The notes under the pieces are model-generated. The model did no database searches. It was not told where the DNA came from and was given only the letters and a program-made list of their open reading frames with translations. Below, piece by piece: positions 24,991 to 45,897 of a stretch of 45,910 nt of DNA. This DNA comes from Bacillota bacterium (GTDB lineage Bacteria > Bacillota > Sulfobacillia > JAJYWN01 > JAJZPE01). Position 1 is the stretch's first letter; the number at the start of each line of letters is the position of its first letter. Both the position numbers and the translations under genes were made by a program. The stretch covers positions 1 to 45,910 of the forward strand of contig JAJYMC010000011.1 of the NCBI GenBank assembly GCA_021787335.1. Reading direction: 5' to 3'.

Positions 24991-25020
24991 TTAACGAACA
25001 TATGTTCGCTGGTGTAAAAT
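24991..25020 (+). promoter_or_regulatory. tnpB promoter with a perfect SOS (LexA/DinR) box
   Basis: TTAACG (24991-24996), 18-bp spacer, TAAAAT (25015-25020). Positions 24995-25008 read CGAACATATGTTCG, a perfect palindrome that matches the Gram-positive LexA/DinR consensus CGAACRNRYGTTCG at every position. It covers the end of the -35 box and the spacer, where a bound repressor would block RNA polymerase. The ATG at 25027 lies only 6 bp past the -10 box, so the message would be leaderless or nearly so. Confidence 0.7.
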
Positions 25021-25026
25021 GGAAAC

Positions 25027-26189
25027 ATGCGGGATCACATTTCGCTCAAGGTTAAGCTTCTTGAGCCAACCGCCAAGAAAGTGCGGGCGCTTTCGGCCAT
25101 GCAGGAGCAGTATACGAAAGCCCTGTCATTGCTGGTGGAGAAGGCAAAGGAACTGGACACCACCTCTCTGGGGCGGTTGCACCGGGAGGCCTACCGTCAG
25201 GTCAAGGGCGAAGTCTTGTTGCCTTCCGAATCGCTACGGGTGGCGTTGAATCAGACCTGCCACATCATGCGATCCTGGAAGGCCCGGCGGGAAAGGGGGT
25301 TAAGGAACGGACCGCCGGTCATGAAGAGGCTTCAGCCAATCGGGATGGGTGCCCGTGGATACCGGATCGTTCAGGATAGAAACAGGTTTGTGCTGCGCCT
25401 GACCACAATCGACGGGTTCCTGTGGCTTCCGCTCAAGAATGAGCCGTATTACCGTGCATGCCTGGAGGCTATCGCTACCGGGAAGGGTCATCAGGGAGAC
25501 TCCAAACTCGTTCAGGAGAAGGGTTGGTGGTATCTACTCTTGCCCACGCGGGGGGACGTACCCGAACCCGCCGGAATCAACATAGTCGGTGTTGACCTGG
25601 GAGTCGCGAACCTTGCGGTTGTCTCCACTCCTGACGGAAAGGTGAACCGCTTCCTCTCCGGCCATGCTATCCAGGCAAAACGGAATCGGTTCTTCGACCG
25701 CCGCTACTCCCTGTCGTGCGCCAAGAAACCACATATCATCAAGCGAGACCGGGACAAGGAACATTGTTGGATGAAAGACGTGAATCATAGGTTTCGCGGG
25801 CCATTATCCGAGAAGCGCGGAAGGTGGTAAGCCCGGTCATCGCCCTGGAGGAACTACGAGGCATCCGGGAGCGGGTCAAGGCTACCAAGAAGGTCAACCG
25901 GATGCTCCACTCCTGGGCATTCGCCCAACTGACCGGCTTCATCGAGTACAAGGCTGCACGGGCTGGCATCCCCGTTGTACGGGTGGACCCTCGCAAGACC
26001 AGCCAGACCTGTTCCAGGTGCGGCCACGCGGAGCGGGCGAATCGGAGTACGCAAGCCCTATTCAGGTGCAGGCGATGTGGATTTGAAATCCACGCCGATT
26101 TGCAGGCCGCCCGGAACATTGCCGTGAAGGCACAATCATTCGTATCAGGCTACATGTCTGGTACGATGGGCCTCCTGACAAGGCCCTGA
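25027..26189 (+). pseudogene. tnpB: tnpB (element 1), single-base frameshift
   Basis: Read through one missing base near 25792-25798 (a TTT run), the two parts give a full ~387-residue TnpB, an RNA-guided RuvC-type nuclease. The first part (to 25830) carries the N-terminal domain and RuvC-I 'IVGVDLGVANLAVVS'; it ends out of frame after 'WMKDVNHR'. The second part (open from about 25797) resumes with 'RAIIREARKVVSPVIALEEL', containing the RuvC-II glutamate, then the zinc finger 'CSRCGHAERA...CRRCG' and RuvC-III 'HADLQAARNI'. All three catalytic acids are thus present in sequence but not in one protein. A sequencing error is possible. The gene faces the dnaJ operon head-on. Confidence 0.85.
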
Positions 26190-26287
26190 AGCCCGGCACT
26201 CTACTCCTTTGGGAGCAAATCCCGACCGGGCAACCTGGTAACTTCCCTTCGGGAATCCCACCCCTTCAGTGGGTGGGAGGATGTCAA
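26190..26287 (+). ncRNA. Probable omega RNA (reRNA) 3' region of element 1
   Basis: About 100 nt between the tnpB stop and the right end, closed by the hairpin CCCAC-CCCTTCA-GTGGG and the end GGGAGGATGTCAA. In TnpB systems the scaffold RNA covers this region and the guide is the flank beyond it, here the antisense of the dnaJ 3' end. By analogy only. Confidence 0.45.
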
Positions 26288-27273
26288 GTCGGTTTATAAG
26301 GATGGATTTGGGACAGTTCGGTGACCAGCTTCTTGGCCTGCTCGTCGAGGTCGGTCGGCAGGACCAACCGGATCTTGACCAGTTCGTCGCCGACCGGGTG
26401 GGCGCCGGAAGCCGGGAGGCCCTGGCCGCGCAGGCGGAAGACCTGCGCCGGTTGAGTCCCGGCGGGAATCTTCATGGTCACCGGGGTCTTCATCGTCGGG
26501 ACCTCGACTTCCCCCCCGAGCATCGCCTCGTACAGGCTGACCGGCACCTCGGTCTCGAGGTTGTCGCCGACAGCCCGGAAGACGGGGTGGGGGAGGTACC
26601 TGATGACCAGGTAGAGGTCGCCACCGGCGCCGCTCTGGCCGGCCACGCGGAGCTTCGCGCCCTCGCGGATGCCGGCCGGGATCTTGACCTCGAGCCGACG
26701 CGAACCGGTCGGGGTCTGCAGTTGCACGGCGCGCTGGCCGCCGGAGTATGCCTCCTCGAGGCTCACCTCCAACGGGTGCTCGATGTCGCTGGTGCCGAAG
26801 CCGGCCTCGGCCCCCGGCGCCTGTTGCCATGTGGCCCGCGGCCGGCGGGTCCGGCGTCCCGCGCCGCGGCCGCCCAGGAGATCACCGAGGTCCTCCGCCC
26901 GCACGCCGCCCCCGCCCAGGTCGCCGAAGACCGTGCGGAAGAAATCGGAGAAGTCGCCCCCGTCACCGGGCGTACCCCACTCGACCTTGACGTTGCGAAA
27001 ACCGCCCGGGAAACCCGGGCCGGCCCCGGGCCCGGCGCCACGGAAGTTCTTCTCCCAGTCCGGACCGAGCTGGTCGTAGCGGGCGCGCTTGGTCGCGTCG
27101 CTGAGGACCTGATAGGCCTCGTTGATGCTCTTGAACTTCTCGGTGGCCTCGCGGTCGCCGGGGTTGACATCAGGATGGTACTTGCGGGCCATCCGCCGGT
27201 AGGCCGTCTTGATGTCCTTCTCGGTGGCCTTCCGGTCGACCCCGAGGATAGCATAGTAATCCTTGTATTCCAC
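26284..27273 (-). CDS. dnaJ: DnaJ-family co-chaperone without zinc finger (CbpA type)
   Basis: A 329-residue type II J-protein. The J-domain (1-70) has 'KDYYAILGVDRKATEKDIK' and the HPD motif in 'ARKYHPDVNPGD'. A Gly-rich/linker region (~80-165) follows, then two substrate-binding C-terminal domains ('LEVSLEEAYSGGQRAVQLQT' onward). The CxxCxGxG zinc repeats of canonical DnaJ are absent. It stimulates DnaK ATPase. The stop codon TGA (26286-26284) lies inside the conserved right end of tnpB element 1, so the insertion set or replaced the original stop; the loss of a few C-terminal residues is possible. Follows grpE by 43 bp. Confidence 0.9.
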   Translation of the reverse strand: MEYKDYYAILGVDRKATEKDIKTAYRRMARKYHPDVNPGDREATEKFKSINEAYQVLSDATKRARYDQLGPDWEKNFRGAGPGAGPGFPGGFRNVKVEWGTPGDGGDFSDFFRTVFGDLGGGGVRAEDLGDLLGGRGAGRRTRRPRATWQQAPGAEAGFGTSDIEHPLEVSLEEAYSGGQRAVQLQTPTGSRRLEVKIPAGIREGAKLRVAGQSGAGGDLYLVIRYLPHPVFRAVGDNLETEVPVSLYEAMLGGEVEVPTMKTPVTMKIPAGTQPAQVFRLRGQGLPASGAHPVGDELVKIRLVLPTDLDEQAKKLVTELSQIHPYKPT

Positions 27274-31166: not shown

Positions 31167-31228
31167 AAATCTAGAGACATTCAGCGAGAAAGCCCGCGGC
31201 TTCAGTCGTGGGATGAATCGCCTTCCCC

Positions 31229-31257
31229 TTGACCCAAACCCATGTTCGTATTATAGT
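31229..31257 (+). promoter_or_regulatory. tnpB promoter of element 2 with degenerate SOS-box-like site
   Basis: TTGACC (31229-31234), 17-bp spacer, TATAGT (31252-31257). In the spacer, 31235-31248 reads CAAACCCATGTTCG, 11 of 14 identical to the perfect SOS box of element 1 and in nearly the same place relative to the promoter. Confidence 0.55.
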
Positions 31258-32363: not shown

Positions 32364-32548
32364 ATGGCCGCGAGGACTGCCGCCCGGTGTGGTAACCGTA
32401 TGGGAACACAACCGGGGCGGGCCACTGACTTGGCCCTCAATGGTGGCACCAATGAGGTCCTACCGGAAACGGACTGGGCCTGAGGTAGCCGCCGACCAGC
32501 CCGGGGTATCCCGGGAACTCCACGGCTTCAGCCATGGGAGGATGTCAA
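32364..32548 (+). ncRNA. Probable omega RNA of element 2
   Basis: A 185-nt GC-rich, hairpin-rich region between the tnpB stop and the right end, the usual size for a TnpB scaffold RNA. It ends in CCACGGC-TTCA-GCCATGG and GGGAGGATGTCAA; the guide would start at 32549 with the pdaD leader. Inferred from position and the shared end. Confidence 0.55.
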
Positions 32549-32582
32549 CACAGCCCAAAGCACAAGGAGGCAAGACGCAGCT

Positions 32583-44438: not shown

Positions 44439-44470
44439 CGTACTCCGCTGACTGAAGTCAGCGGCATCTC
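44436..44470 (-). ncRNA. 3' end of the probable omega RNA of element 3
   Basis: Only about 30 nt lie between the tnpB stop and the right end, so the scaffold would overlap the tnpB coding end. The hairpin with TTCA loop is shared with the other two elements. The guide would be antisense to the UPF0173 gene 3' end. Confidence 0.35.
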
Positions 44471-45713
44471 AGGCGGCAAGAGCCACCTTCGACTTGGTTT
44501 CGTGGACCGTATGCCATCCGAGGCGGATCGGCAAGACCACGGGCCGCGCCACGCGGCCACTACTCCGCTCCGTGAGGGGAGATACCTTGAAGGCATTCTG
44601 GAAGATGTTTGCGGCGCCGTTCGCATCAGCTTGAACCTGCCAGCCGCAGGCGCAAACGTACAGCCCACGATGCTTGCGGCCCGACTTCTTCACTTCGCCA
44701 CAGGCGTGACAGGTCTGGGACGTGTAGCTTTCGCTGACTTCAGTCACCCGGATGCCGTGGAGCCCGGCCTTGTACGTGACCATGCCGACGATCTTGCGGA
44801 ACGGCCAGGCGTGGAGCCGCTGGTTGAGTGCGTCGGTGTAGTCGATGCGCTCCCGGATGCCCGTCAGATCGCCCACCGCAATCGTGTCCACCCCGGCCAG
44901 CCAGCAGCGATGCACAAAGTCAGCCGTCAAGATGTGGAGCAACTGTTCCACCTGCCGCGACTCCTTCCGCTCGATCTGCCCAAAGCGGCGGCTCTTTCGC
45001 CGATTCTCCGCACCCGGTGGCTTGACCTTGGCCCGCACCTTGTTCCAGTACCGGCGGATGGACTTGACCAGCCTGCCGCTGTACAGGAGCGTGGCGCCAT
45101 CATCGAAGATCGCCGTGATGGCCTGCGTCTCGCCCAAGTCAACGGCCACCCTGCGGTTGCCCAGCGGCTGTTTCGCCGCGACCTCCACCACCAGATGAGC
45201 GCATGGCCCATGCGTCTTGTCGTAAGTGAGGAGGACGCCCCGAACCCGCTGGAAGGATAGATCCTGGCGCATCTGCAAAGTGACGGTGACCGATTTGACT
45301 CCATCCTGGCGGCCAGTGCCCAGGCTCAGGTTTAGCTGGTCGCCTTCCAGGGTGAAGCCAAAGCCCTCGTAGTATCGGAGCGGCGAGTAATCCGTCTTGC
45401 GGCGAAACCCCGGCGTCTGGTGCTGTGTCCGTCCCGCCTTCCGCAGGGCAAAGAAGCTCTTGTAAGCCTGAATCACCTCGTCACGGGTCGCCTGAGCAGA
45501 CAGCGAGTAGTAGCCCTTCGCCCTCGGCAGTGTCTTCAGCACCGCATTCAGGTTTTTGCGGGTAGCCTTGGTCTTGCCTGTGCGCTCGAACTCGTCTCGC
45601 AGATGCCAAATGAGACCGTTGTATACCTTTGTGGCGCAGGACATCGCATCAAGCAGCACAGCCTGAGTCTGTTCATCGGCAATCACCTTGGCCTTCAGCG
45701 TTAGCACCGACAT
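44469..45713 (-). CDS. tnpB: TnpB of element 3, RuvC-II glutamate replaced
   Basis: A 414-residue TnpB from a different branch than elements 1 and 2 (longer N-terminus, zinc finger C335/C338 and C354/C356 with CxC). RuvC-I D192 ('RRVAVDLGETQAIT') and RuvC-III D363 ('QADANGAANIF') are present. At RuvC-II the usual glutamate is a glycine (G281 in 'TIAVGDLTGIRE'). TnpB lineages with rearranged catalytic residues are known, so it may still cut using a nearby acid, or may be a binding-only protein. About 40 residues follow the last RuvC motif. GGGAGGTGA upstream of the ATG is also the end of the truncated tnpA. Confidence 0.9.
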   Translation of the reverse strand: MSVLTLKAKVIADEQTQAVLLDAMSCATKVYNGLIWHLRDEFERTGKTKATRKNLNAVLKTLPRAKGYYSLSAQATRDEVIQAYKSFFALRKAGRTQHQTPGFRRKTDYSPLRYYEGFGFTLEGDQLNLSLGTGRQDGVKSVTVTLQMRQDLSFQRVRGVLLTYDKTHGPCAHLVVEVAAKQPLGNRRVAVDLGETQAITAIFDDGATLLYSGRLVKSIRRYWNKVRAKVKPPGAENRRKSRRFGQIERKESRQVEQLLHILTADFVHRCWLAGVDTIAVGDLTGIRERIDYTDALNQRLHAWPFRKIVGMVTYKAGLHGIRVTEVSESYTSQTCHACGEVKKSGRKHRGLYVCACGWQVQADANGAANIFQNAFKVSPLTERSSGRVARPVVLPIRLGWHTVHETKSKVALAA

Positions 45714-45720
45714 TCCGTGT

Positions 45721-45897
45721 TCACCTCCCTTCCGGGTCGGGCAATGACCTACCGCTCCTCATCTCCCGCAGCAGTTCCTTCGCCGCTTCACCGACCGGTG
45801 GTGTCAGCACCTTACGCCGATACTTTGTAGACCACACGACATGATACCATGTCTCGTAGACGCAATTCCCTGTAGACTTCCACGCTTCGTGCTTCAT
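45721..45897 (-). pseudogene. tnpA: Truncated tnpA (IS200-type Y1 transposase)
   Basis: ATG 45897-45895 gives 58 codons: 'MKHEAWKSTGNCVYETWYHV' then 'VWSTKYRRKVL', the IS200 TnpA amino terminus, ending after an unrelated-looking tail 'RSGRSLPDPEGR'. Full proteins are about 130-150 residues; the HUH metal site and catalytic tyrosine are missing. The element cannot move by itself. The stop TGA overlaps the ribosome site of tnpB, as if an internal deletion joined the start of tnpA to the tnpB leader. Confidence 0.85.

Follow-up and report, generated by a model that had tools for sequence, protein, structure and literature searches.

Insertion elements under SOS control have been reported in only a few articles, as a 2026 paper on ISCR elements states in its available portion (PMC13393415). 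The transposase genes discussed or cited there, those of ISCR (rcr), Tn5/IS50 and IS10, resemble the locus described here in that a LexA box overlaps the promoter of a transposition gene, but they belong to other element families and use the proteobacterial CTGT-N8-ACAG box; the word TnpB is absent from that paper (PMC13393415). ISDra2 of Deinococcus is a member of the same IS200/IS605 superfamily and transposes more when DNA is damaged, but according to the accessible part of its description the response to irradiation does not run through induction of TnpA, whereas at our locus transcriptional control is predicted (PMC2806898). Other transposase promoters of Deinococcus are likewise governed by a damage-response repressor, DdrO, although the genes are of the Tn3 and IS5 families and the repressor is a different one (PMC8533742, in part). 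In the sections available to us, a study of SOS systems in gut metagenomes counts mobile-element dissemination among putative SOS functions and does not mention the term ‘transposase’ (PMC3998124). A literature search of partly accessible texts, with most subscription journals outside its scope, found no paper connecting LexA to tnpB. SOS-controlled mobile elements are already known, and the predicted LexA control of tnpB would be the new part.

The consensus of the Bacillota LexA (SOS) box is CGAAC-N4-GTTCG. The site described here has the same dyad and the same variants, and lies inside a promoter, as do the boxes in the lexA/LysM region of its host. The gene under the box here is no repair gene but is predicted to encode a transposon-borne RNA-guided nuclease. 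The window (the whole 45.9-kb stretch of DNA analysed) corresponds to contig C9 in a genome assembly of 65 contigs and 3.55 Mb, whose genes and relatives point to a host in the Bacillota. It contains two tnpB elements with such a box (Table 1), called element 1 and element 2 in the order of their positions.

Results

A predicted LexA operator in the tnpB promoter of element 2

In a promoter assigned by consensus only (TTGACC-N17-TATAGT), CAAACCCATGTTCG takes up the first 14 of the 17 spacer bases of element 2. A sequence-only reading of this DNA had placed an SOS-like box here, and its description of the site is borne out: the box is identical to that of element 1 at 11 of 14 bases, keeps the ATGTTCG half and sits in the promoter spacer. 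Its further statement that the two boxes occupy the same place holds to within a few bases, but the box of element 1 extends into the last part of a weak -35 (TTAACG) and is farther from its -10 than the box of element 2.

The same reading had called the element 2 box degenerate, which was wrong. Of 30 lexA loci in the class, 23 had upstream DNA that could be read (the other 7 were dropped when the frame motif failed); CAAAC-N4-GTTCG, on either strand, is present in 21 of these 23 regions, including that of the host, whose operator is CAAACAGTTGTTCG. The left half of the element 2 box is thus a normal operator form, though only 4/7 complementary pairs of the dyad are kept; the copy on host contig C21 is similar. 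The lexA loci outside the host family have 36 sites with at most one mismatch, and 34 of these operators went into a scoring matrix. These operators score 13.3–22.9, a range that includes the element 2 box. At a threshold of 17.39, the matrix finds only the boxes of elements 1 and 2 in the window, against 0.05 expected (one match in 20 simulated order-1 Markov windows). A loose scan of the window for CGAAC-N4-GTTCG with up to three mismatches was uninformative, as it gave 222 matches against 242 expected and hence no excess. Genome-wide, perfect CGAAC-N4-GTTCG sites number 20, against 2 for the reversed control. By the matrix and genome counts, the site is not a chance match. The host has a single LexA match, through the LexA DNA-binding domain (PF01726, E 2.1e-28).

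Table 1. Positions of the boxes, promoter parts and element features in the window, and contigs of the host genome with perfect boxes at tnpB or tnpA loci.
Feature	Position	Strand	Basis or remark
LexA-type operator CAAACCCATGTTCG, element 2	31235..31248	+	Inside tnpB promoter spacer; matrix score 17.39; CAAAC-N4-GTTCG form
-35 hexamer TTGACC, tnpB promoter of element 2	31229..31234	+	Sequence; spacer of 17 verified
-10 hexamer TATAGT, element 2	31252..31257	+	Sequence
Left-end sequence CAGCGAGAAAG-hairpin-GATGAATCGCC, element 2	31182..31222	+	Anchored alignment rows; common to elements with other TnpBs
tnpB of element 2, 350 aa	31311..32363	+	Pfam PF01385 (OrfB_IS605) and PF07282 (Cas12f1-like TNB); alignment; solved relatives
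3' non-coding region and right end of element 2, ending in GGATGTCAA	32361..32548	+	Conserved in 4 relatives
LexA-type box CGAACATATGTTCG, element 1	24995..25008	+	Top possible matrix score, 22.98
tnpB of element 1, broken in two frames (25027-25830, 25824-26189)	25027..26189	+	ORFs and Pfam
Perfect boxes in front of tnpB/tnpA genes or remnants	Contigs C8, C9, C17, C20, C21, C32, C36, C38, C44:151735, C47, C61		

The gene behind the element 2 promoter looks intact. Its product has zinc-finger cysteines and, by alignment, the invariant D167, E250 and D333, which we take to be the RuvC catalytic triad of TnpB; its best relatives of solved structure are IS605 OrfB-type and Cas12f chains, and a nuclease role is predicted. 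Element 2 has no tnpA of its own, with only ~50 bases separating promoter from tnpB, and elements with TnpB alone are recognised as belonging to the IS200/IS605 family. The left-end sequence is probably the transposition left end of the element and presumably its TnpA site. Farther out, ~22 bases ahead of the box, there is a separate hairpin that resembles an end signal. The 3' region probably specifies a putative omega RNA: it is both conserved and foldable, as such an RNA would be, with a consensus fold of 51 pairs, 7 of them kept with change on both sides, a count for which there is no chance control. An Rfam search of the 3' ends of both elements gave no family above its gathering score. 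The sole trace was HgcC below threshold, at 22.2 bits in element 2 (32417-32561) and 23.3 bits in element 1 (26166-26300), against a gathering score of 50; HgcC may itself be a kind of omega RNA.

Genes that carry the box in the host genome

Eleven of the 20 perfect boxes front tnpB or tnpA loci, some of them remnants (Table 1). Another fronts a Y-family polymerase gene (C28) and one adjoins a DUF72 gene (C50), while the remaining seven could be assigned no SOS gene, several of them lying inside coding sequence. Sites matching only GAAC-N4-GTTC front a DEAD helicase gene and a DUF5131 gene, and the lexA-LysM region has three sites with one mismatch each to the 14-base pattern. Together these genes look like a putative LexA regulon in which tnpB/tnpA loci form the largest class among perfect boxes.

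Some of these sites have features of their own. The box beside the DUF72 gene (C50:212752, locus L154) is nested in a more extended inverted repeat, in which it has TAGAAT to one side and the mirrored hexamer to the other, and may serve two diverging promoters. At the DUF5131 gene (L144, G000:C35 near 21645), the box stands beside TATACT, which makes this gene a candidate SOS gene. The element at C44:151735 (L147), of the TnpB type that we call group B, has an internal deletion that removed most of tnpB and kept the left end, the boxed promoter and the right end.

TNB-domain matches number 31 in the host genome, 29 of them above the family cut-off. Our upstream survey took 15 of the 31; the other 16 were truncated, fragmentary, frame-broken, without a locus or overlapped by the box at the start codon, and two of these (element 1 itself and L018) have a box. 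Within 500 bp upstream, a matrix score of at least 12 was reached at 9 of the 15 surveyed genes, compared with 0/15 in the coding control and 0/15 in the reversed control.

The box in relatives and other genomes

By the same measure, all four tnpB rows from the other two genomes of the host family have a box. The frequency falls to 3/23 in the rest of the class (22 class stretches plus L050; coding control 1, reversed control 0) and to 2/24 in a phylum sample (24 of 30 loci, of which L263 repeats a class row; controls 0). Among rows from named genomes, which are the best 80 of 214 relatives found with group B proteins, 5 have a box (coding control 0, reversed control 1), and two of these, L159 and L160, are again loci of G001, a genome of the host genus. 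Most examined TnpBs outside the host family are without a box, and the box is rare beyond the host lineage.

The dyad is present in 4/4 host-family copies of the element 2 type with readable upstream DNA. It is missing from L240 of G294, a near relative with adjacent tnpA and tnpB, and from L076 of G040, a more distant one (46% identical). No fetched group B relative from Alicyclobacillus, Paenibacillus, Sulfobacillus or Streptomyces exceeded the cut-off, and the element 2 protein as query found no relative in the named-genome contigs. A locus in Dethiobacter (L179) has a box.

Boxes also stand upstream of tnpA: in four copies in G003, where the dyad is perfect and lies 64 bases before the Y1 match, at the remnant on host contig C38, and in G416. 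In G370, the lexA operators read TAAAC/TGAAC...GTTTG and the boxes of its four tnpAs TAAAC/TGAAC...GTTTA; the latter score 10.1–10.2 on the class matrix, none reaching 12. This one case hints that element boxes follow the operator form of their own host.

The window itself holds a third element on the minus strand (44469-45864), consisting of a tnpB (44469-45713) and, at the contig end, the beginning of a tnpA (Y1 match 45760-45864); a box placed as in the related tnpAs of G003 would fall just beyond the contig edge. Two tnpBs of Anaerolineaceae (Chloroflexota; L182 and L189) have AGAAC-N4-GTTCG ~40 bases before the start; L189 belongs to Flexilinea flocculi, which has been cultured. In another TnpB type, group E (L025, L028, L129 and L141; host C18, C8 and C25), CGAAC-N4-GTTCT overlaps the start codon and also encodes the first residues, and these copies were excluded from the counts as coding constraint is inseparable there from operator constraint. 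We rejected as boxes the CGATTGTATGTTCG-like sites of group A TnpBs (L003, L005 and L014), where the promoter is placed differently and has the GTTCG within its spacer; the score is 6.8 for both L003 and L005. The four copies of AGAACAGATGTTCT in G026 score 9.3 and were not counted.

Conservation of the dyad and of the promoter

In the element 2 group (host C9 and C21; C161 and C67 of G002), pairwise identity is 90% in the dyad arms, 75% in the -35, 67% in the -10 and 42% in the central four bases. The corresponding values are 94%, 87%, 82% and 68% for the 7 rows of the element 1 group, where the -35 columns overlap the box by two bases, and 97%, 86%, 94% and 55% in group B (6 rows). The AAC/GTT core is 100% identical in all three compared subgroups, and in G114 the two arms depart together, and in a matching way, from the element 1 form (CAAAC...GTTTG). 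All rows in this comparison were chosen as box carriers, and C8, C47 and C61 (element 1 type), C44 (group B) and C38 (group B2), which were found by palindrome search, give no independent evidence that the box is present. Leaving out C8, C47 and C61 from the element 1 group (4 rows remain) gives 90.0% for the arms, 91.7% for the -10 and 66.7% for the centre; group B minus C44 (5 rows) gives 96.0% for the arms, 83.3% for the -35, 93.3% for the -10 and 55.0% for the centre. The palindrome is thus conserved along with the promoter, and the pattern that the sequence-only reading had named as its refutation, conservation of nothing but the promoter, is not what is seen, with the dyad clearly more conserved than the hexamers in the element 2 group and about equally so elsewhere.

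Ancestry of the box

On a tree of 142 TnpBs, presence of the box changes 12 times, at least 10 of the changes being forced by well-supported branches, compared with an average of 19.8 for shuffled labels; the tree is a quick one (LG+G4) with several long branches, which leaves the exact number soft. A single origin of the box on this tree is rejected on these changes, and the TnpBs of elements 1 and 2 fall in well-separated groups. The proposal that damage-responsive control is an ancestral trait of this tnpB group accordingly survives locally, for the host-family copies of element 2, but fails as a broader statement, given the number of changes, the rarity of the box beyond the host lineage and its partial association with a left-end cassette on unrelated TnpBs; the near relative in G294 has no box either.

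The left ends offer a partial account of this pattern. The left ends of element 2, C67 of G002, host C46 (with an unrelated TnpB) and host C38 and G001 C22 (with a third TnpB type) resemble one another closely; they have the form GCGAGAA(A/G)G-hairpin-GATG(A/G)ATCGCC or near it and lead directly into the boxed promoter. It seems that a left-end cassette, probably one that included its tnpA, was joined to different tnpBs; in host C21 and G002 C67, an apparent degraded tnpA, judged by eye, lies between box and tnpB. The left ends of element 1, of group B and of the tnpA elements of G003 differ from the cassette, so the box was gained more than once or exchanged beyond recognition. Overall, the distribution of the box follows the host lineage and, partly, the left-end promoter cassette.

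Discussion

We propose, with a probability of about 0.8, that the host LexA uses 31235-31248, within the spacer of the tnpB promoter, as an operator and thereby keeps tnpB off until DNA is damaged. The suggestion of damage-responsive control in the sequence-only reading is well supported as a prediction by the match to lexA operators, the recurrence of the box at tnpB and tnpA loci and the conserved palindrome. In an undamaged cell, a LexA dimer would sit between the -35 and the -10 and silence tnpB. Upon damage, RecA filaments would stimulate self-cleavage of LexA and open the promoter, so that the mRNA of TnpB, and perhaps the 3' omega RNA with it, would be made. After TnpB cuts the emptied site, recombination restores the element, as set out in the introduction of PMC11870625, seen in part. 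For element 2, the benefit could then be that, once TnpA excises the element, TnpB would cut the emptied donor site and recombination would copy the element back at a time when RecA is active, tying cutting to repair and keeping a harmful nuclease off otherwise. LexA binding, damage induction and this benefit at element 2 are all predictions from the DNA.

A less probable explanation, to which we give a small but real chance, is that the box is a leftover that formerly controlled the tnpA of an intact IS200/IS605 element and now stands passively before a tnpB without tnpA. The apparent tnpA debris in host C21 and G002 C67 would fit such a history, as would the broken frames of element 1 and the host C44 copy, in which the box has outlasted most of tnpB. 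In the element 2 group, however, AAC/GTT does not vary although its centre and flanks do, and in element 2 itself the TnpB frame is still open and the 3' RNA region conserved; even a leftover box could be bound by LexA. About half as probable, in our estimate, is that the palindrome is bound by another factor, such as an element-encoded protein, TnpA at the hairpin of the element end, or TnpB together with its RNA. Its nearness to the left ends of the elements invites this thought, but the end-signal-like hairpin is separate and farther out, similar sites front lexA and SOS-type genes outside mobile elements, and several TnpB groups with different ends have the palindrome in common.

Chance or plain conservation of the promoter we regard as very improbable. 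The mismatch scan of the window shows no excess of loose matches, and once the palindrome-found rows are left out, the -10 of the element 1 group is as conserved as the arms. Chance is nevertheless contradicted by the genomic excess of perfect sites, the matrix counts and the surveys upstream of tnpB, and promoter conservation by the element 2 group, where the hexamers reach 75% and 67% and the arms 90%.

More broadly, LexA control of TnpB nucleases might be a recurrent strategy in which unrelated IS200/IS605 elements place themselves under the SOS switch of the host, and TnpB cuts could in turn raise the SOS response in a self-reinforcing loop of copying back; we offer this extension tentatively and think it rather more doubtful than operator function at element 2. 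How tnpB is switched on seems to be little studied. If LexA does hold tnpB, the timing of RNA-guided cutting at the donor site would be tied to RecA-dependent repair and, if true, this would reveal how such a mobile nuclease keeps its harm to the host in check.
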